In this document: in pieces, positions 11,532 through 25,851 of the stretch
How the letters are laid out: each line of letters opens with the position of its first letter
Position numbering within the stretch: the stretch's first letter is position 1
Virus record (IMG/VR): IMGVR_UViG_3300017782_003923
Coordinates: 1 to 26,843 of that record
Length of the DNA: 26,843 nt
DNA from: a virus
Strand: one strand, 5' to 3'
Program-made: the position numbers and the translations under genes
The notes under the pieces: generated by a model
Told to the model about the DNA's origin: nothing
The model's input: only the letters and a program-made list of their open reading frames with translations
Database searches by the model: none

Positions 11532-12288
11532 AATAATTTCTCCTGAAAATGTCATCTTCTGTGCATTCTGCACCATATTGTATTTCAATAATTTTACATA
11601 CTACGTTATATGGATTGGTTATTTGATGCCATGTTCCTAGTGGTACTATAAAATAATCATGTTTTTGCAAGGTTAATTTTTCATCATCTACATTGTTTTG
11701 ATTATGAAAGATATCGCATTTACCTTGACTGATTAACCATATTTCTGAACGTTTATCATGTTTTTGATAACTCATACCTTTGTTAGGTTCAACAATTAAT
11801 TCTTTTACTTTTACGCCATTATCTTCAAATAAATTAAAATACTCTCCCCATACTTTATTGTATTTTTCGTATTTCCAATCTTTTAAAATCCAAGAAGATG
11901 AGTTTTGTTTTACATTGCCACCAATACCTGATAATAATTCTATACCTGATACTAATATTTCAGGCACGTTATTATTATTTCTATCACCGCCATTACAGAA
12001 TAAAATATTATCGTTAGGATAAAGTTTTTTTATTTCTTCTAATCCATTAATAGCTGTTCCATGTTCATCATTTTCATTTTTAATAACTTGGTCAACATTT
12101 TTTATAGATTCCAATATTTTTTTTCTTTCATCAAAAGGCATAAATGCTTTACCTTTTTTATTTATTAACCAATCATCATCATTCAATAAAATAATAAGTA
12201 TATCGCCTTTCTTTGATGCTTCTTCTATTAATGAAATATGTCCTGAATGTACAGGGTCAAATCCACCACTTATAACAGCAATGTTCAA
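11509..12288 (-). CDS. Nucleotidyltransferase-cupin fusion, sugar-nucleotide supply
   Basis: This 259-residue protein is a fusion. Residues 1 to about 137 are a cytidylyltransferase-like Rossmann domain with the HxGH motif H14-SG-H17 (GGFDPVHSGH), as in TagD and the nucleotidyltransferase half of HldE, and the later segment NGGDRNNN and SSSW in the place of the ISST-type motif. Residues about 145-250 are a cupin like the C-terminal part of type II mannose-6-phosphate isomerase/guanylyltransferase (SYQKHDKRSEIWLISQGK ... LGTWHQI, with H177 and H221). Together they could isomerise or sense a sugar and activate it. The start is a TTG that overlaps the dioxygenase stop as TTGA; AAGGGG lies upstream. 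It precedes the glycosyltransferase. Confidence 0.78.
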   Translation of the reverse strand: MNIAVISGGFDPVHSGHISLIEEASKKGDILIILLNDDDWLINKKGKAFMPFDERKKILESIKNVDQVIKNENDEHGTAINGLEEIKKLYPNDNILFCNGGDRNNNNVPEILVSGIELLSGIGGNVKQNSSSWILKDWKYEKYNKVWGEYFNLFEDNGVKVKELIVEPNKGMSYQKHDKRSEIWLISQGKCDIFHNQNNVDDEKLTLQKHDYFIVPLGTWHQITNPYNVVCKIIEIQYGAECTEDDIFRRNYYEDIHTD

Positions 12289-13202
12289 TTAATTTTATCC
12301 CCTTCTTTTCTATTTTTTGCCCTGTCAAGTTCTTCTTGCATAGTTCCACAATGTTTTATATTTTCTCTGTAATAACAAACAACTGAAATCCTTTCAAAAG
12401 GTGCTTTAGAAGTCATTTTTGTATTCCCATGAACTTCATGCACATCAAAATAACAAACATCACCACTACTTAAATCAAAAGCACAATCATATCTTGGCAT
12501 TACTGTATAACCACCTTCATATTTACCTGCACTTAAAACTGCCAAATTTCCTAATCCTTCTTTTAAGTCACCTGCGTCCGTATGATAAGCGGTTTGAAAA
12601 TTTTTATTAACTGTTACTGTACTAAAAACTGTATCAGTAATAATAAAATCTTTGCTACTGTGGTCTACTACTTTTTTTTGTGCTTCATATCTTTCAGAAC
12701 ATGCTTCTTCAAACATATGACTTATATATTTTAAAAAAGGTATTGAGTTACTAAATAGTTCTCTATTTTTTTCAGTAAATGCTGTTTGTCTACAATAAGG
12801 AAACCTTGTGTTCCTGTCAAAATAACCTGCTATACCTGAATTAACTTGTTTAGCACGCATAACCTTGCTTAATGTTCCGTCTTGTTTTATTTCTCTGTAT
12901 CTGTGACTAGAAATAGTTTTATGTCCAACTTGGTCATCACTATCTAAAGGACCTGCTGCCATACCTCTATTTTCTGATTTAGTTGCTGCTCCTCTAAGAT
13001 TATAATAAGCAGTTTCACATACTTTTTTAGGTATCTTACCTTTTCTAAAAAAGAATAATGGTTCGCCATCTTCAGTATAAGCATTGCAATCATCATTGAT
13101 TAAAATAGAATAATCATCATCTGTAGCATAACGACCTTTTAAATCATTGGCTTCTTCTTTTGTTAATTTGGGTTTTAAATAATATTTAGGTACTTCTTTC
13201 AT
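12285..13202 (-). CDS. TET/JBP-type 2-oxoglutarate/Fe(II) dioxygenase
   Basis: This 305-residue enzyme is of the TET/JBP superfamily, which oxidises methyl groups of 5-methylpyrimidines in DNA. The double-stranded beta-helix core runs from about residue 185 to 280: FSTVTVNKNFQTAYHTDAG gives the iron ligands H207 and D209, GKYEGGYTVMPRY and LSSGDVCYFDVHEVHGN give the distal ligand H258, and R271 (ERISVVCYYR) is placed to bind 2-oxoglutarate. All catalytic residues are present. Phage members convert 5-methylcytosine to 5-hydroxymethylcytosine, which glycosyltransferases then decorate; the neighbours here fit that. It overlaps the ParB-like gene by 17 bases. No methyltransferase is visible in the window. 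Confidence 0.87.
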   Translation of the reverse strand: MKEVPKYYLKPKLTKEEANDLKGRYATDDDYSILINDDCNAYTEDGEPLFFFRKGKIPKKVCETAYYNLRGAATKSENRGMAAGPLDSDDQVGHKTISSHRYREIKQDGTLSKVMRAKQVNSGIAGYFDRNTRFPYCRQTAFTEKNRELFSNSIPFLKYISHMFEEACSERYEAQKKVVDHSSKDFIITDTVFSTVTVNKNFQTAYHTDAGDLKEGLGNLAVLSAGKYEGGYTVMPRYDCAFDLSSGDVCYFDVHEVHGNTKMTSKAPFERISVVCYYRENIKHCGTMQEELDRAKNRKEGDKIN

Positions 13203-18888: not shown

Positions 18889-19332
18889 TTATATTTTTGA
18901 CCAATCTAATCCTGAAAATAATAATGCTTCTGCTTCCCTTCTTCTTATTAATCCTTGCAATACTTTTCCACCTGCTTTATTCCATCTTTTAATCTGTGCA
19001 GGTACTTCTTCGTATTCACCTTTATTTAAAACTTTAATCATAGTGGATGCATTAAGATTTGCACCACCTAAATTAAATGTCCATGATACAAGAGCATCAA
19101 ATTGATGTTGATGCAGTGGAACTGTAACAGCTTTTTTTACTGCATCTTCGTAAACTTCTAAATCAGTTAATAATATAGAGTCTGCTTCTTCTTGTGTTAT
19201 TTCTTGATGTTCTTCTACAAATTTTGTATGCCCGTATCCTATAGTCCAAACATCTGCGGCACATTTGTATGATTTAAGTTCGCACCCTTCAAACTTCTTA
19301 ATAAGTGCTATTCCTTCTTGTGATATTTTCAT
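18889..19332 (-). CDS. Endolysin (GH24 phage lysozyme) with Cys in catalytic triad
   Basis: This 147-residue muramidase degrades the host cell wall at the end of infection. The start at 19332 (MKISQEG) is chosen because GGGGG lies six bases upstream; a longer in-frame reading overlaps the nuclease gene. The catalytic region is KKFEGCELKSYKC ... WTIGYGHT: E15, eight residues, C24, five residues, T30, the E-8-(D/C)-5-T pattern of P22/R21-type lysozymes with Cys in the Asp place. DALVSWTFNLG and IKRWNKAGGKVLQGLIRRR are the other family blocks. There is no signal peptide or SAR segment, so a holin must release it. It is four bases after the nuclease gene. Confidence 0.93.
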   Translation of the reverse strand: MKISQEGIALIKKFEGCELKSYKCAADVWTIGYGHTKFVEEHQEITQEEADSILLTDLEVYEDAVKKAVTVPLHQHQFDALVSWTFNLGGANLNASTMIKVLNKGEYEEVPAQIKRWNKAGGKVLQGLIRRREAEALLFSGLDWSKI

Positions 19333-19336
19333 ATTT

Positions 19337-19729
19337 TTACCCCCATGTTCCGTCTTCTCTGACTTTGGCTGTTTTTTTACCACCCCAGTATTCAACTGCG
19401 TGTCCTTCTTGCACGAGGGTTTTACAAATATCTTTTTTACCTTCTGTAAAAGGTGTCGCGAGAATCCGTCCATATTTTCCTTTTCCATGTGATTGAATTA
19501 CTAATTTATCAGCACATAGTTCTTTTAACCTTTCTTTGGCTTTTAGTCCCAGTGCTTTTTCTTCTAAATTTCTTGTGCGTGATTCAGGTGTATCAATACC
19601 TGCTAATCTGCATCTTTGTTTATGTAACTTAACGTCAAAGCCTAAATCTAAAGTCACGTCTATGGTGTCTCCATCTATTACCCTTTCTAGTATAGCGTTA
19701 TATACAAATGGCGTGACTAATTCAGACAT
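19337..19729 (-). CDS. Staphylococcal nuclease-like (thermonuclease) protein
   Basis: This 130-residue protein is an SNase-fold nuclease. Its motifs are RVIDGDTIDVTLDL (D19, D21), QRCRLAGIDTPESRTRN (R41, D46, E49), LKAKERLKEL and GKYGRILATPF (R88), so the expected calcium-binding and catalytic arginine and acidic residues are present, followed by LVQEGHAVEYWGG. It has no signal peptide and would act on DNA or RNA in the cytoplasm. Lying between the holin candidate and endolysin, it may break down host nucleic acid late in infection or lower viscosity at lysis. The ribosome site is poor; the gene starts six bases after the holin stop and is probably coupled. Confidence 0.88.
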   Translation of the reverse strand: MSELVTPFVYNAILERVIDGDTIDVTLDLGFDVKLHKQRCRLAGIDTPESRTRNLEEKALGLKAKERLKELCADKLVIQSHGKGKYGRILATPFTEGKKDICKTLVQEGHAVEYWGGKKTAKVREDGTWG

Positions 19730-19735
19730 AGCGTT

Positions 19736-19900
19736 TTATTGCTTGGCTTTCCCTATATTGAGTGCCAATAATTCTAAGATTTTATATAACTTAGCAATCA
19801 TTGCATCATCTTTAGGTGTTGGAGTTAAAGCACAGATTATGGATGCACCGCAAACAACACCTGTGATAATTCCTAGCCATTCTCCTATCATTCCCATCAT
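19736..19900 (-). CDS. Small membrane protein, holin candidate
   Basis: This 54-residue gene was found by reading the minus strand between the spanin and nuclease genes. It begins with two ATG codons (19898-19900 and 19895-19897) after AGGAGATATTA. The sequence has a hydrophobic stretch (MIGEWLGIITGVVCGASIIC, about 4-23), then ALTPTPKDDAMIAKLYKI and a second amphipathic part LELLALNIGKAKQ with a basic end. The TPTPKDD and LALNIGKAK pattern is one I know from small holin-like proteins of marine phages. It stands beside the signal-less endolysin, which needs a holin. One long or two short membrane segments are possible. Confidence 0.75.
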   Translation of the reverse strand: MMGMIGEWLGIITGVVCGASIICALTPTPKDDAMIAKLYKILELLALNIGKAKQ

Positions 19901-19941
19901 ATTAATATCTCCTATAATGAATGAATCTAAATAGTAGCAAA

Positions 19942-20328
19942 TTATTTGTTATCTGACACCTTTTCTTTATCTGTATCTTCTTTATCGTATTCTCTGTAAA
20001 ACTCAATAATATGCAAAGTATCTTTAATATATCTTTTTATTTCTGCCATATTATTAGATAAGTTTTCATAATCTTTTGTTGTTAATGAATAATACGCGGT
20101 GTTGGGTGCAGAGCCATTTTCTAAATCAGAAAGGTACTCTTTCATTATATGAGGGGTTAAAATTTCCCAATCAATATCCGCCAAGTTTAATTCTATTGGG
20201 AGTGGCGGGTGATATATAGGGGACGGCTCTGCAATCGTTATCACTTCAACAGGTTTAGTTTGCGTTGGTATCATAGAACACGCTGTGAAGTAGAAAAGGG
20301 TAAGACTAGCTATTAGTAGATTCTTCAT
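19942..20328 (-). CDS. Outer-membrane lipoprotein, o-spanin (Rz1-like)
   Basis: This 128-residue protein starts at the ATG at 20328, inside the i-spanin gene (23-base overlap); the TTG before it is less likely. Residues 1-16 are a lipoprotein signal (NLLIASLTLFYFTAC), with C17 as the lipidated Cys. A proline-rich segment PSPIYHPPLPIELN follows, then WEILTPHIM, YYSLTTKDYENLSNNMAEIK and a charged end. Nested or overlapping i-spanin and o-spanin genes, with a Pro-rich lipoprotein, are usual for Rz/Rz1 pairs, though this one is longer than lambda Rz1. It would join with the i-spanin to fuse inner and outer membranes at lysis. Confidence 0.8.
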   Translation of the reverse strand: MKNLLIASLTLFYFTACSMIPTQTKPVEVITIAEPSPIYHPPLPIELNLADIDWEILTPHIMKEYLSDLENGSAPNTAYYSLTTKDYENLSNNMAEIKRYIKDTLHIIEFYREYDKEDTDKEKVSDNK

Positions 20329-20710
20329 CAAACTGGTTAGGGTTAGTTAGTGTTATTAAATCTTCTTTTACTTGCTTAGTACCTTTATTAACTATTTTTT
20401 CTATAAGTTTAGGTTTAGCTAAAGCAAGATTATCAAGATCATGTTTTGCAAAAGTATTCTTTAGTTTATTTACTTCTCGTTGTGATTCTCTATTTTTTTC
20501 TGTAAGAATATTTAATTGTTCTTGATTTTGTTTTTGTTTTGCAAGGTGTTGCTTTATAGATTCGTTTTGTTGCTCTATTGAGTTTTCTAAAGCTATTTGG
20601 TTACCTTTTAGAACTGATATTTGATCTAAAAGCCTATCAATGTACCAAGCACTTCCTGATGCTGTGACAAGCAACAGACCACCTAGTATTAATGATAATT
20701 TAAATCCCAT
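20306..20710 (-). CDS. Inner-membrane spanin (Rz-like)
   Basis: This 134-residue protein has an N-terminal membrane anchor (LSLILGGLLLVTASGSAWYI, about 5-24) and a long periplasmic coiled coil (about 30-100, rich in Gln, Glu, Lys and Asn with heptad Leu/Ile) ending in a charged tail. That is the standard architecture of the i-spanin Rz. It overlaps the cyclase gene by 22 bases upstream and the o-spanin gene downstream. Its place in the lysis cassette with a lipoprotein partner, holin candidate and endolysin supports the call. Confidence 0.85.
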   Translation of the reverse strand: MGFKLSLILGGLLLVTASGSAWYIDRLLDQISVLKGNQIALENSIEQQNESIKQHLAKQKQNQEQLNILTEKNRESQREVNKLKNTFAKHDLDNLALAKPKLIEKIVNKGTKQVKEDLITLTNPNQFDEESTNS

Positions 20711-22467
20711 GTATACACCTGTAATTTATCTTTTTTGCCTTTAGCTTTTATTGGTTTTAAAGGTATCAAATTAAATTCTATACCATTTTGTGTTGATTGA
20801 CCAATTAACAAATCTACACCTGCATTTTTTGTTCCTGATTCTAATCTAGCGGCAACATTAACTGCATCACCTATAGCTGTGTAATCAAATCTATTTTCAC
20901 TCCCCATATTTCCAATAATTGCATATCCAGTATTAATGCCTATGCCTATGGTTACTGGTTCAATATTTTGTTTTGCAAGAAGTATATTTAGTTCATGCAT
21001 ATTTTTTTGTATATCTAACGCACATTCAAAAGCTTTTTCTTCATGGTTTTCTAGATCTAATGGTGCATTAAAGATAGCCATCATGGCATCACCAATATAT
21101 TTATCTACCATTCCTCCGTGTTTTTGCACTGCTTGTTGTTGTGCGGTTAATGCTTTATTCATTATGTATGTAACTTGTTCAGGTTCTAATTTTTCAGATA
21201 GTGCTGTGAAACCTCTTACATCTGTAAATAAAAATGTTGCATATTTTTTTTCTCCACCAAGTTTTAAAAGTTCAGGATTATCTTGTAATTTTTTAATTTG
21301 TCTTGGATCTATATAATGTTCAAATTGTTTTTTTATTTCTTGTCTTAACCTGTACTGTTCTCTGAACCTTATATAAAAAGCTATAGAGCCTGTAATAAAC
21401 TGTGAAATTAGTGACCAAGTAACATCAACCAATAATCCTCTGTGGATAAGTCCATAACCTGTATAAGCTGTGCATAACATTATTAAGATAGCTGTTGTAA
21501 TACCCCAAGTTATACCTAAAGCGTTTAATACAAGCCATATTAGACTTACTGTAAGCAAAAATATAAGTATTTCTAAAGCTATAGCCCAATCAGGTATATA
21601 TGGGCTATCTTGTATTAAGATTGATTCTGCTAAAGCTGTTTGAATTTTATGTGGTTCTAGTAAACCTACAGGAGTAGCTATTTGTGGCATAACACCATTA
21701 GCTGTAACTCCTATAAATACAAATTTACCTTCTACATTCATTTCTTGTAAGTCTGTTTGTGGAGTATCTACCCAACTTATCCATTTTCTACCAAGACTAT
21801 CAGTTTTAACTGGTGGTATTCCTCTAATTGATATTTCCTCTATACCATTATCATTAGTTTTTATAATGTAAGTTCTTACATCAAATAATGCTTTATATAT
21901 TTGTGTGCCAAATGAAGGTATCCATTCATTTTCAGGTGTGCTTACTAAAAGGGGTATTCTTCTAACCAGTTGATCTATTTCAGTGGGAGCAATGGCTAAA
22001 CCCTGCAATGTAGTATTTGATAAGGTGTTCAGGTTTTCCTTGACTCCCATACTTACTATACCACTAACATCATTGCCTTTGACAACTGTTCCTGTAGATT
22101 TAGGGTAATTGTTTTTGCCATCTTCAAACATAGCGATTACAGATGGTGCATAGCCTAATGTAGTTGCAAAGACCTTATCTCCACCCATTCTATCTGCTTG
22201 TGGAAAGGACATAACCCAACCAACCCCAATAGCACCACGATTAATAAGTTCTACTTGTATTTCTGCTAATCGTCTTCTTGGTAGAGGATAACCACCTTCG
22301 TTTTCTATATCTGCTTCTGTAATATTTAGGATTACAAAATTTCCTGATGGTTCATATTTTTTGACTAAAGCATCAAATGTTCTTAGTTTTATTATTTCTG
22401 TAGGTGTGCTTTGAAATATAAGCGGTAAAGATAATATTAATAATATTGGTACTATAAGTTTTTTCAT
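20689..22467 (-). CDS. CHASE2-domain membrane adenylate cyclase
   Basis: This 592-residue protein has a membrane or signal segment (3-20), a periplasmic CHASE2 sensor (about 25-290; FDALVKKYEP, ILNITEADIENEGGYPLPRR), three membrane helices (about 293-365), a short linker, and a class III cyclase domain (about 405-590). The metal ligands are D416 in FTDVRGFT and D460 in DKYIGDAMMAIFNAP; K456 and T530 (YTAIGD) occupy the adenine-recognition places, with N537 and R541 for catalysis. All residues needed to make cAMP from ATP are intact, of the Lys/Thr bacterial type. Its start overlaps the FecR-protein stop (TAATG). It is followed directly by spanins. It might link an outer-layer signal to cAMP in the infected cell. 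Confidence 0.92.
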   Translation of the reverse strand: MKKLIVPILLILSLPLIFQSTPTEIIKLRTFDALVKKYEPSGNFVILNITEADIENEGGYPLPRRRLAEIQVELINRGAIGVGWVMSFPQADRMGGDKVFATTLGYAPSVIAMFEDGKNNYPKSTGTVVKGNDVSGIVSMGVKENLNTLSNTTLQGLAIAPTEIDQLVRRIPLLVSTPENEWIPSFGTQIYKALFDVRTYIIKTNDNGIEEISIRGIPPVKTDSLGRKWISWVDTPQTDLQEMNVEGKFVFIGVTANGVMPQIATPVGLLEPHKIQTALAESILIQDSPYIPDWAIALEILIFLLTVSLIWLVLNALGITWGITTAILIMLCTAYTGYGLIHRGLLVDVTWSLISQFITGSIAFYIRFREQYRLRQEIKKQFEHYIDPRQIKKLQDNPELLKLGGEKKYATFLFTDVRGFTALSEKLEPEQVTYIMNKALTAQQQAVQKHGGMVDKYIGDAMMAIFNAPLDLENHEEKAFECALDIQKNMHELNILLAKQNIEPVTIGIGINTGYAIIGNMGSENRFDYTAIGDAVNVAARLESGTKNAGVDLLIGQSTQNGIEFNLIPLKPIKAKGKKDKLQVYTWDLNYH

Positions 22468-23585
22468 TATTCGCTTTGCGTAATTGTAATTACAGAATCA
22501 CTTCCACCATTAATTTTTATAACATTAGATACACCATCTTGAATAATGATAAGGGTATAGGCATCATCACCATTTAAATCTAATCTAGCAGTATTGTTTA
22601 CATTCCTTCTCAGACTTACAACATTACCTGCTATCAAAGTTGTGATTTGTGTTTCTGTATCTTGACCTATTTTTGTTCCTTGTATATCAACACCTCCTAC
22701 TACAGCTAAAACATCTTCTTGTTTGCTTACTGCAAGTGCATCTAAGACATTTAACAAATCTTCAAGATAGTTAGTATCAAGATAATTAATATCTAATTCT
22801 GTGAACTCTAATTCATCTTGACCAAAAAAATCTTCATCAAGATAATCAATATCTAAATCATTAAAATCTAAAATATTCTGTTGTGAATCTTGTGCAACTT
22901 CTTCTGTAAAACTTAGTTCTTTTTTGGGGGGTGTCACTATTAGCATGTTATCAATAATATCTAATGTTAAATCTAGGATTACTGGTTCACTTGGTTTAGA
23001 TTCAAAGACATTTACTGTGGTGGCTTGAAATGGTTTATTAAGCAAAACTGTACCCATAGCAGTAACTACTTCTATCTCACCACTAGACAAGCCGAGAGCA
23101 TCAGGGAGCAGTATTATCAATGACCTTCCTAGTTCATCTACAGTAGCTGTAAAATCTGTACCTCTGATTGCGATATTTGCTGTAGGTGTTTTAAGTTTTA
23201 TATTTTGTTTATCTATTCTATTAAGATTGCCTGTAATAAATCTTGCTGTGCCTAATCCAAAGGTAAGAGCCATCTTTGATTTAGATGGGTCAGGGTCATA
23301 GATATATTCATCTATTAAGAGTTGTGAGTGTTCAGTTAGTTTGACTGTAGAATCGTCTAAAAACTTAATAGCCATTCTTCCATTAGAAGTAATAGCTTCA
23401 TCATTGCTTTGTATAGCAAATTTTAGATTTGCATTATAGGGTTTATCTCTTATTATTTGTGCTGAACCATTTAGTTCAGATATATCACCAATATCAACAG
23501 CCTGTGCTTGTACCTTGATCGTTTTGGATAACACAAACAGTAGAAGAAGAATTACCACCCACTGATATGATTTTGAGCCAGTCAT
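22467..23585 (-). CDS. FecR-domain protein with curlin-type C-terminal repeat
   Basis: This 372-residue exported protein has a signal peptide (WVVILLLLFVLSKTIKVQAQA, about 9-29) and a FecR domain (about 38-190) with the family motifs TSNGRMAIKFLDDSTVKL, LTFGLGTARFITG and TPTANIAIRGTDFTATVD. An acidic, duplicated DIDYLDEDFF/DINYLDTNYL segment (about 245-277) follows. The C-terminal 50 residues carry a curlin-like unit: IIIQDGVSNVIKIN has the QxGxxN signature (Q349-N354) and the chain ends in VITITQSE. In bacteria, FecR proteins of this type are often next to CHASE2 cyclases. It overlaps the curlin gene by 92 bases and couples to the cyclase gene. CAGGAC precedes the start. It is likely periplasmic or surface-exposed. 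Confidence 0.88.
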   Translation of the reverse strand: MTGSKSYQWVVILLLLFVLSKTIKVQAQAVDIGDISELNGSAQIIRDKPYNANLKFAIQSNDEAITSNGRMAIKFLDDSTVKLTEHSQLLIDEYIYDPDPSKSKMALTFGLGTARFITGNLNRIDKQNIKLKTPTANIAIRGTDFTATVDELGRSLIILLPDALGLSSGEIEVVTAMGTVLLNKPFQATTVNVFESKPSEPVILDLTLDIIDNMLIVTPPKKELSFTEEVAQDSQQNILDFNDLDIDYLDEDFFGQDELEFTELDINYLDTNYLEDLLNVLDALAVSKQEDVLAVVGGVDIQGTKIGQDTETQITTLIAGNVVSLRRNVNNTARLDLNGDDAYTLIIIQDGVSNVIKINGGSDSVITITQSE

Positions 23586-24225
23586 TGTCCTGTGTGCTTA
23601 ATTGTTGAATATTAAATGTTCTTTGACCACCTGTATGATCTAAATAGAAATATCCACCTGCTGAAGCATTAACACCAGTACCTGTATAGGTAACTGTATT
23701 GTCAGAACCATCAATATCCATATAGTTAGTTGCACCATCAATATTTATGTTTGATGTGATCGTATTATTAGAACCTTGAATAATCCAATCTAAGTTAAGA
23801 CTTGCCGCTAAAGCAGTAGTTCCTTGATTCAACGTAAATGTATTAGAAGCACCAGTAACTGCAACATTATGATCAGAACCATCAGCACCAAAACTATTAG
23901 TTGGGTCTACTTGGATAGTAAAAGAATTAGTTGAGCCAGTAAAATTATACAAACCTGTAAAGTTATCAGCGTATATATCACCTAAAAATTTATTGGTAGC
24001 ACCAATCATATTGATATCTAGTGTCATGCTATTACCATCTAGATCAAAGGGTGTAAGATCACCTGCTGTTGTATTTAGACCACCTATGATATTAGATATA
24101 CCTAATTGTTCTAAATCTATATTTGCACCTGTTCCTGATTGATCTACATATATTTCGTTATCAGCCGCGTATGTTGGCAAGACAATCATCATCGCAATCA
24201 GGCTTAGTAATTTCAGTTTCTTCAT
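23494..24225 (-). CDS. Exported curlin-like repeat protein
   Basis: This 243-residue protein has a signal peptide (KLLSLIAMMIVLPTYA, cut near residue 20). Right after it come two curlin-type units: DQSGTGANIDLEQ and LEQLGISNIIGG, with Q29...N35 and Q40-N45 in the QxGxxN pattern. The rest is a regular beta array of G-(S/A/T)-x-N-x-(F/I/V/M) units roughly 17-25 residues apart (IGATNKF, TGSTNSF, TGASNTF, QGSNNTI, DGATNYM, DGSDNTV). Two Cys stand at the end (TVCVIQNDQGTSTGC), where QNDQGTS again resembles a curlin repeat. It is probably a substrate of the CsgG pore rather than CsgA itself. It overlaps CsgG by 65 bases; GGAG precedes the start. Confidence 0.8.
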   Translation of the reverse strand: MKKLKLLSLIAMMIVLPTYAADNEIYVDQSGTGANIDLEQLGISNIIGGLNTTAGDLTPFDLDGNSMTLDINMIGATNKFLGDIYADNFTGLYNFTGSTNSFTIQVDPTNSFGADGSDHNVAVTGASNTFTLNQGTTALAASLNLDWIIQGSNNTITSNINIDGATNYMDIDGSDNTVTYTGTGVNASAGGYFYLDHTGGQRTFNIQQLSTQDNDWLKIISVGGNSSSTVCVIQNDQGTSTGC

Positions 24226-25027
24226 ATTTCCAAAAACTCCTATCGTATCCGATATTTATAAGTTCCAAGACTGCACCTTCTATAGCTTTCATCAATGCAA
24301 TCGTTGTTGACTCGTTTCTTGAATTACCTAATTCAATTTCTACGAGTTCAGTACCCATCTCTATGAATCTAAAAACATCTTCTGATTTACCATAACTAAA
24401 TATGGTTTTTTGGCTTAATACTTCTATAAGTATCTCACCTGTTGCAACTGATACCATACGAAGACTAACTGTTATATTGTCTTCTCTGTATTGAATGCTT
24501 TTACCTATTCCTAGATACCTAGCACCAACACCACCAGTTGACAAGTTACTATCATAGCTTATTACAGCACCTTCTAGCAATACACCTGCAAAGAGCAGTG
24601 GTGGTACGTTCTTTTCTTCACCATCTTTTGCAAATTGTTCTCTTGCTGATCTAATAAGTTGTCTTTCTTTTGTTAGGTTATCTAAGCCAACCCTTTCTAC
24701 TACTCTAAAAAATTCACCATTACTAGAATGTTTTAATGCTCTTATTAATAATGTGTAGGGTGCTTGTGTTACAGCAGTAGAAAATAAAGCAAATTCACTG
24801 TTACTTTTTCTTTGTCCTGTTTGATCTGTAAATGCTGTGGGATATACAGCTACTATAGGTTGTACTAAAGGTTTCTGTACATTAGCTAATTCTTTAGAAT
24901 GAAGTTGATCAATTCTTACTATGTCGTTATTTGCTCTTTGGTCGTATGTATCTTCATACTGGTCAAAAATTGAACAACTAGAAAGTAAAAGTACCGATAG
25001 GAATCGTAATTTCTGTGACTGTGCCAT
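24161..25027 (-). CDS. csgG: CsgG-type curli secretion channel lipoprotein
   Basis: This 288-residue protein matches CsgG over nearly its whole length. A lipoprotein signal leads to C18 (LLLSSC). Blocks shared with E. coli CsgG, from memory, include TDQTGQ, FSTAVTQ (F82 aligned with the constriction Phe), a RQLIRSAREQ-like helix, then GGVGARYLGIGKSIQYRED, NITVSLRMVSVATGEIL, KTIFSY and VFRFIE. The transmembrane-hairpin part is thus present, and mature length (271) is near that of the E. coli channel (262). The constriction residues Tyr and Asn of E. coli appear to be Ser and Leu here. It should form an outer-membrane nonameric pore for unfolded curlin-like proteins. It overlaps csgF by 50 bases. 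Confidence 0.95.
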   Translation of the reverse strand: MAQSQKLRFLSVLLLSSCSIFDQYEDTYDQRANNDIVRIDQLHSKELANVQKPLVQPIVAVYPTAFTDQTGQRKSNSEFALFSTAVTQAPYTLLIRALKHSSNGEFFRVVERVGLDNLTKERQLIRSAREQFAKDGEEKNVPPLLFAGVLLEGAVISYDSNLSTGGVGARYLGIGKSIQYREDNITVSLRMVSVATGEILIEVLSQKTIFSYGKSEDVFRFIEMGTELVEIELGNSRNESTTIALMKAIEGAVLELINIGYDRSFWKYEETEITKPDCDDDCLANIRG

Positions 25028-25520
25028 CTGCTTCTGTTATTTTTAGGGTTAATGTTACGCCATCACTTGTATATTCTATTATATTTCCTTCTAGTTCAAT
25101 AATTCCTGAATCAGAAGGTGTTTCACCAAATAAATTACTAACAAGTTGTCTTGAAAGTTCAGCATAGACTCTACTTTCTAAGTTACGCATAAATCTAGCT
25201 AAAGTACTATTTTCTTTTTCTCTTTCTATTTCTTCTTGTAAGGCTTTGATTTCTTCTTTAATAGTAAGCTTACGATTAAACTCTTGATTTTCTATAGTTA
25301 GATAATGACTAGATGTATTTATGCCATTAAAAGATGGTGATTTAAACTTATGTACTATTTGATCTGCTGTAGCACTTTGTATAAATATTCCTAAAATAAG
25401 AATTATGCCTATTATAGATACCCATTTGATAATAGTATCTTTTTCAGCTTCTTCTTTTCTTCTAAGTAGTTCAGCTTTACTTGGTCTACCTCTTTTTTTC
25501 TTAATCTTTTCTTTGGTCAT
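24978..25520 (-). CDS. csgF: CsgF-like curli assembly factor with basic N-terminal extension
   Basis: This 180-residue protein begins at the ATG at 25520 (MTKEKIKKKRG; AAAGG upstream), rather than at a TTG six codons earlier. Residues about 7-30 are very basic with an RGRPSKAELLRRK motif, followed by a hydrophobic segment (WVSIIGIILILGIFIQ, about 37-52) and ATA before DQIVHKFKSPSFNG, which matches the mature N-terminus of CsgF (TFQFRNPNFGG in E. coli, from memory). The rest (SHYLTIENQEF, LARFMRNLESRVYAELSRQL, ITIPIGTFTF) fits the CsgF helix and C-terminal beta part. CsgF caps the CsgG pore from outside and helps nucleation. The cytoplasmic extension is unusual: E. coli CsgF has a short signal. 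Confidence 0.85.
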   Translation of the reverse strand: MTKEKIKKKRGRPSKAELLRRKEEAEKDTIIKWVSIIGIILILGIFIQSATADQIVHKFKSPSFNGINTSSHYLTIENQEFNRKLTIKEEIKALQEEIEREKENSTLARFMRNLESRVYAELSRQLVSNLFGETPSDSGIIELEGNIIEYTSDGVTLTLKITEADGTVTEITIPIGTFTF

Positions 25521-25851
25521 CTCTATCCGCCTTTGCAATTTTACTGCTATCTATTAGTTGTGGGACACCAAGAATAGTCTTAATAAGAGTATCTTGTCGT
25601 ATGATCTCATTGTCTAAACTTCGCACCCTATCAATTAATGCTACCAAAATACCATGTTGGGAATCAAGTTTTGTGCCTAGTCTATCTTCAATAGCAGATA
25701 TTTGTTCTGCTACTTTTTGATCTACAACATCAAGTTTAGTTTCCATACCATCAACAATACGCATGATAAGTTTATAAATAAACCAACCAAGTCCAAGTGA
25801 AGCGGCAATAGGAAATCCAACCTCTTGGATTATCTTTATTGCAGAATCCAT
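25501..25851 (-). CDS. Small membrane protein with coiled coil
   Basis: This 116-residue protein has one N-terminal hydrophobic segment (VGFPIAASLGLGWFIYKLIM, about 11-30) followed by a charged coiled coil (about 35-100: GMETKLDVVDQKVAEQISAI, then LVALIDRVRSLDNEIIRQ) and a basic end. Similar proteins are common in marine phages near tail-fibre and lysis genes and are sometimes called holins of the BhlA kind. With a second candidate (19736-19900) closer to the endolysin, the role is unsure: holin, antiholin or membrane anchor. Its end overlaps the CsgF gene by 20 bases, and its start lies next to the previous stop. Confidence 0.72.
   Translation of the reverse strand: MDSAIKIIQEVGFPIAASLGLGWFIYKLIMRIVDGMETKLDVVDQKVAEQISAIEDRLGTKLDSQHGILVALIDRVRSLDNEIIRQDTLIKTILGVPQLIDSSKIAKADRDDQRKD

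Follow-up and report, generated by a model that had tools for sequence, protein, structure and literature searches.

The FecR-domain protein of phage curli cassettes ends in a predicted beta-domain that is probably not a curlin repeat

Curli genes are found in abundant marine phages, where they have no agreed function. A T8SS has been described in pelagiphages of the HTVC008M and HTVC023P types (PMC9599517). It comprises the components that we find here, in the same order, namely CsgF, CsgG, a curlin, a FecR protein, often a second curlin and an adenylate cyclase. The curli cassette, FecR and cyclase included, is thus already published for pelagiphages, and the accessible text of that description makes no mention of the C-terminal part of FecR, hereafter the tail. 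The curli operon of methylophage Melnitz, as far as its description is accessible (PMC9004378), has the same order including FecR and cyclase, and its FecR is about 35% identical to the one studied here. However, the Melnitz tail has no QxGxxN motif, and a second curlin gene lies between fecR and the cyclase gene. FecR-domain proteins are also known beside CHASE2 receptors in cells. In the accessible descriptions of the Campylobacterota adenylate cyclase cluster (PMC9239204) and of Burkholderia BiofilmReg (PMC5192318), an exported FecR-domain protein neighbours a CHASE2 receptor, as it does here. These pairs are however described with LysM or other partners and not with curli genes, and the Burkholderia receptor is a histidine kinase rather than a cyclase (PMC5192318).

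The curli cassette of the window and its relatives

The DNA analysed, called the window, is a virus record of 26,843 bases. Its left part carries head, portal and terminase genes and its middle part replication genes. An ORF at 12285-13202 encodes a Queuine tRNA-ribosyltransferase-like protein (phrog_6059, 1.3e-8), perhaps involved in DNA hypermodification. On the right, the genes lie on the minus strand in the order holin-like gene, csgF, csgG, curlin-like gene, fecR and CHASE2-cyclase gene, followed by spanin, nuclease and endolysin genes. The curli cassette thus lies between the holin-like gene and the spanin, nuclease and endolysin genes (18889-20710).

The small holin-like membrane protein preceding csgF (25501-25851) matches phrog_18771, a family of unknown function, at 1.2e-15 and the holin family phrog_1296 at E 0.01. 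It is followed by csgF (24978-25538; Pfam CsgF, 5.3e-16) and csgG (24161-25027; Pfam CsgG, 1.3e-47). The next gene encodes a curlin-like fibre subunit of 243 residues (23494-24225; family CUR1). This copy has no match to Pfam Curlin_rpt; several relatives of the neighbouring curlins score above the cut-off of that family. The next gene, fecR (22467-23585; ATG start, 372 residues), shares its first 92 nt with the curlin gene (23494-23585), an overlap kept in 69 of 83 loci. Downstream of fecR lies the gene of a 592-residue protein with CHASE2 (3e-23) and adenylate/guanylate cyclase (Guanylate_cyc, 1.1e-20) domains (20689-22467). Pfam and PHROG profile matches revealed no CsgE, CsgC or CsgH gene in the cassette. 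A reading made from the sequence only had implied a curlin-like gene and a CHASE2 cyclase gene as neighbours of fecR; the fecR gene is real and this layout was confirmed.

At least 596 viral relatives of FecR were confirmed in a first scan. We examined 409 loci, 400 of which held a complete FecR; ten proteins outside 340-420 residues were dropped, leaving 390, of which 272 are distinct; at 70% identity these form 27 clusters. Bacterial-genome records contributed a few (L258-L262), among which L258-L260 look like phage contigs binned into genomes. Wherever the flanks allow, the order csgF-csgG-curlin-fecR-(second curlin)-cyclase recurs over the 27 clusters. HTVC008M and Melnitz show the window order plus a further gene with curlin repeats before the cyclase gene. 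In HTVC008M the product of this second curlin gene (L002:8073-9395) joins a PA14 domain (2.7e-6) to curlin repeats (5.2e-8) and may be a subunit of the fibre that binds sugar.

The C-terminal domain of FecR and the QDGVSN motif

The FecR protein begins with a putative signal peptide (residues 1-29; 23499-23585), recognised by eye from a hydrophobic run followed by VQAQA. The FecR domain occupies residues 66-151 (23133-23390; PF04773, E 2.8e-9, 37.7 bits for a cut-off of 24 bits), and the whole protein matches phrog_37870, a phage family of unknown function, at E 1.3e-66. An acidic linker follows (residues 205-296; 22698-22973), in which LDI[DN]YL-like stretches recur. It has a low pLDDT and a net charge of -19 over residues 215-296. 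The protein ends with the tail (residues 300-372; 22470-22688). The full-length AF2 model was weak, with a mean pLDDT of 61; it was best over residues 31-180 (10-residue block means of 61-89), the FecR domain being the best-modelled part. This part resembles the periplasmic domains of FecR/PupR anti-sigma proteins 4m0h and 6ovk (Foldseek E 0.004-0.011, prob 1.0).

Because of this low mean pLDDT, the tail was predicted alone. With 122 sequences, AF2 modelled residues 270-372 at a mean pLDDT of 83, and of about 88-93 over residues 300-369. Strands were predicted at residues 307-309, 314-319, 322-329, 331-338, 343-349, 352-358 and 365-370. This small beta-domain found no secure match among solved folds (Foldseek E >= 0.16; best VIA Z 3.4), and its sole good viral fold match was another phage FecR. 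The tail aligns throughout the 27 clusters, in close and distant homologues alike. G307 and Q370 are invariant in the tail alignment. Of the 272 FecRs, 271 have Q370, 266 have I366, 262 have I368, 256 have G361 and 253 have Q349.

The sequence-only reading had taken QDGVSN (residues 349-354; 22524-22541) as a curlin repeat. The motif is indeed present. Curlin repeats have the published kernel N-x-Psi-x-Psi-x-Q-x-G-x-x-N-x-Psi-x-Psi-x-Q, in which a four-residue X-G-X-X arc connects the strands (PMC10192328, as far as accessible). The window tail fitted at best 7 of the 9 kernel positions; 244 of 5000 shuffles did as well, and so did 26 of 2278 other ORFs when their last 87 residues were scored. 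Of 20000 sequences made by shuffling residues 290-372, 851 contained QxGxxN itself. Among the homologues, 131 of 272 carry it within their last 75 residues; they fall into 5 of the 27 clusters, and 119 of them belong to the cluster of the window protein. The strict motif Psi-x-Psi-x-Q-x-G-x-x-N-x-Psi-x-Psi-x-Q occurs in these last 75 residues in none of the 272. Loss of the second curlin gene did not account for the presence of QxGxxN, as clusters without a second curlin often have no QxGxxN either.

Profile searches gave the same picture. Pfam Curlin_rpt (PF07012) did not match the window FecR at E <= 1, nor was it among the best 25 of the 33 families matching the 122 tails (E <= 0.1). We built a curlin-repeat HMM from the repeat segments of 164, 41 and 10 neighbouring curlin proteins. 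It finds curlins at about 30 bits, whereas the window tail reached 3.2 bits, a score equalled by 105 of 2000 shuffles, and two of the three versions of the HMM gave no match to the window FecR at all. The corresponding figure of 115 out of 3581 other ORFs is inflated by unrecognised curlins that remained in the set. None of the FecRs of the genome loci rose above noise with this HMM, and in bacterial FecRs with many QxGxxN (for instance L269, with 4 motifs) visual inspection traced the motifs to Q/N/G-rich stretches. With hhalign, the tail matched the two curlin families CUR1 and CUR2 at probabilities of 2.8% and 4.1%, below the 9.1% of the CsgF control, whereas the two curlin families matched each other at 99.4%. 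No profile-profile kinship of the tail to CUR1, CUR2, CsgF, CsgG or the linker was found.

In the AF2 model, the first residue of QDGVSN is the last of strand 343-349, and a two-residue turn is predicted at D350-G351 in place of a four-residue arc. As regards a parallel beta-solenoid, the model thus offers a list of strands with this turn, and no fold match is secure. Overall, the HMM, profile-profile comparison, conservation and structure prediction all fail to support a curlin repeat at QDGVSN. The resemblance is most likely due to chance, and the model suggests that QDGVSN is probably a turn between two strands of the C-terminal beta-domain.

One resemblance to curlin nevertheless persists beyond the single QxGxxN motif. 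The protein ends in ...DSVITITQSE, which had been likened to the start of another repeat. Its heptad S-V-I-T-I-T-Q (residues 364-370; 22476-22496) does fit one conserved half-repeat, [NS]-x-Psi-x-Psi-x-Q. This is the published kernel for half a curlin repeat, S taking the place of N as it does in motif a of E. coli CsgA (PMC10192328, in its accessible part). It terminates 261 of the 272 FecRs, in 23 of 27 clusters, as compared to 14 of 3979 other plus-strand ORFs. Because the 272 FecRs share one ancestor, the heptad represents one ancestral feature under constraint and not 261 independent finds. In contrast to CsgA and CsgB, the window FecR has no tandem repeats and no significant profile match. 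The heptad may simply belong to the core of the domain as one of its strands, or it may truly be a strand for docking in the manner of curlin.

Distribution of the tail and bacterial counterparts

In the genome collection, the tail HMM matched five FecRs encoded in cassettes (L258-L262), as well as L338, a duplicate of one of them. It matched none of 111 FecRs without visible csgFG (81 from the genome collection and 30 from whole-genome searches), the presence of a cassette being judged on flanks of about 1.5-6 kb. No convincing protein emerged when the tail profile was run against 385 alphaproteobacterial genomes; a partial match in one of them, G601 (E 0.0017), appeared by eye to be a peptidase-like ORF and was taken as chance. 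The bacterial cassette FecR of locus L339/L516 has a tail that escapes the tail profile. The data better support a FecR-specific domain, restricted in our sample to the FecRs of csgFG cassettes.

Three Caulobacterales genomes carry such a cassette. Two Caulobacteraceae genomes (L261, L262) have csgF-csgG-curlin-curlin-fecR-cyclase among ordinary bacterial genes, and in the third (L339/L516) a 705-kb contig carries csgF-csgG-curlin-fecR-cyclase. Of 398 Caulobacterales, 42 gave a csgG. We inspected 41 of these, namely the first genome plus 40 regions, some of which are truncated where a contig stops, and 2 had fecR and cyclase genes beside csgG; the genome of L262 was outside this draw. A CsgG tree of 82 rows separated the FecR-linked CsgGs, whether from viruses or from cells, from the 39 others by a branch with support 98/93; the tree carries a long-branch warning. 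These three genomes are exceptions, for cyclase and FecR, to a published statement. The open-access literature searched, as far as its text is accessible, holds no description of the FecR tail or of a bacterial csg-fecR-cyclase operon, and this operon is, as far as that search shows, a new observation. Such operons are cellular relatives in which one may ask whether the cyclase senses curli export.

SAR11 genomes, the hosts of pelagiphages, encode FecRs of 190-192 residues that have no tail, with a cyclase alongside in 9 of 16 loci. Therefore, the phage carries a FecR-cyclase pair of the host sort together with a curli-associated tail. The short FecR has a neighbouring cyclase akin to that of the phage in loci L268, L270, L271, L275-L278, L291 and L305.

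Possible roles of the tail

The conserved gene order makes it reasonable that fibre assembly is linked with the CHASE2 cyclase through FecR, as had been proposed from the sequence. In the accessible accounts, Sinorhizobium CHASE2 cyclases respond through an outer-membrane beta-barrel (PMC13001267). Together with the FecR-CHASE2 neighbours of Campylobacterota and Burkholderia cited above, this suggests by analogy that the phage FecR could act as a relay between the outer-membrane export system and the cyclase, the tail being its curli-facing part. The partner of the FecR domain would be the CHASE2 sensor of the adjacent cyclase, as presumed for FecR-CHASE2 neighbours elsewhere. Through the tail, both would be connected with the machinery of curli export or with the fibre subunits, and the state of export would set cyclic-nucleotide output in the infected cell. 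A periplasmic location, contacts of FecR with CHASE2 and of the tail with the curli machinery, and a signal running in this direction are inferred. It had also been proposed that FecR is itself exported through CsgG. This finds no support, as the first predicted strand starts at residue 31, just past the putative signal peptide, and by inspection no free N-terminal segment is apparent. We favour, with some reserve, a protein of three parts: a FecR domain placed in the periplasm, then an acidic linker, and lastly a cassette-specific beta-domain. It would pair with CHASE2 and tie curli export to the cyclase.

This relay leaves the conserved terminal heptad without explanation, which is a point against it, as are the lack of a recognised fold for the tail and the L339/L516 tail missed by the profile. 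Alternatively, the tail, and above all its last strand, could mimic a curlin half-repeat and bind to a curlin subunit or to the end of a fibre through beta-augmentation, FecR being a cap, nucleator or sensor of the fibre. Conservation of the terminal kernel, of Q370 and of Q349 speaks for this, and by eye the mature curlin of the window has N-E-I-Y-V-D-Q at its start and S-T-V-C-V-I-Q close to its C-terminus. The HMM and hhalign scores given above, the lack of conservation of motif b and QxGxxN, the predicted turn in place of the arc and the common ancestry of the 272 FecRs argue the other way, and we hold such mimicry unlikely. It is unlikely, in a bolder form, that the last strand is a conserved curlin half-repeat joining or capping the curlin solenoid, by which phages and a few Caulobacterales would turn fibre assembly directly into a cyclic-nucleotide signal via the CHASE2 cyclase. 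The conserved heptad is in any case a part worth testing, and a cassette-specific FecR domain ending in a conserved curlin-like strand is a concrete part to mutate.

A periplasmic chaperone for curlin, replacing the missing CsgC, CsgE or CsgH, would suit a small beta-domain in a cassette where none of these genes was recognised. However, a single one of 122 tails reached CsgH, at E 0.045, and no CsgC or CsgH chain was among the sequence matches to solved structures (E <= 1). CsgC and CsgH, like curlin chains, were also not among the fold matches listed, which is in itself no proof. This role is very unlikely; identity of the tail with CsgH gained no support, CsgH being over the cut-off in none of 7 genomes. 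The cassette, FecR included, might instead serve lysis timing and not fibres, as its module lies between holin-like and spanin/endolysin genes in window-like viruses. In loci of the window's cluster, a holin-like ORF stands upstream of csgF in all 63 with sequence there, and an endolysin or spanin gene follows the cyclase gene in 54 of the 62 with enough sequence; a lysis role was moreover proposed for Melnitz CsgGF (PMC9004378, in the text accessible). Yet no relatives of spanin or endolysin were detected beside the cassettes of HTVC008M and Melnitz, curlin subunits are retained, and a position in the late region may be mere transcriptional convenience. An effect of the cassette on lysis timing in window-like viruses is possible; a service to lysis in place of fibres seems quite unlikely.

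Two minor observations concern FecR. The model of the phage FecR (m84b650087f44) has a weak fold match to a cell-surface anchoring domain (5ix9), and FecR-like domains lie within very long bacterial ORFs (L340-L367; open frames of up to 7792 residues); a kinship with adhesin retention modules is possible. The LDI[DN]YL-like stretches of the linker are conserved across FecR clusters and are possibly a binding motif.
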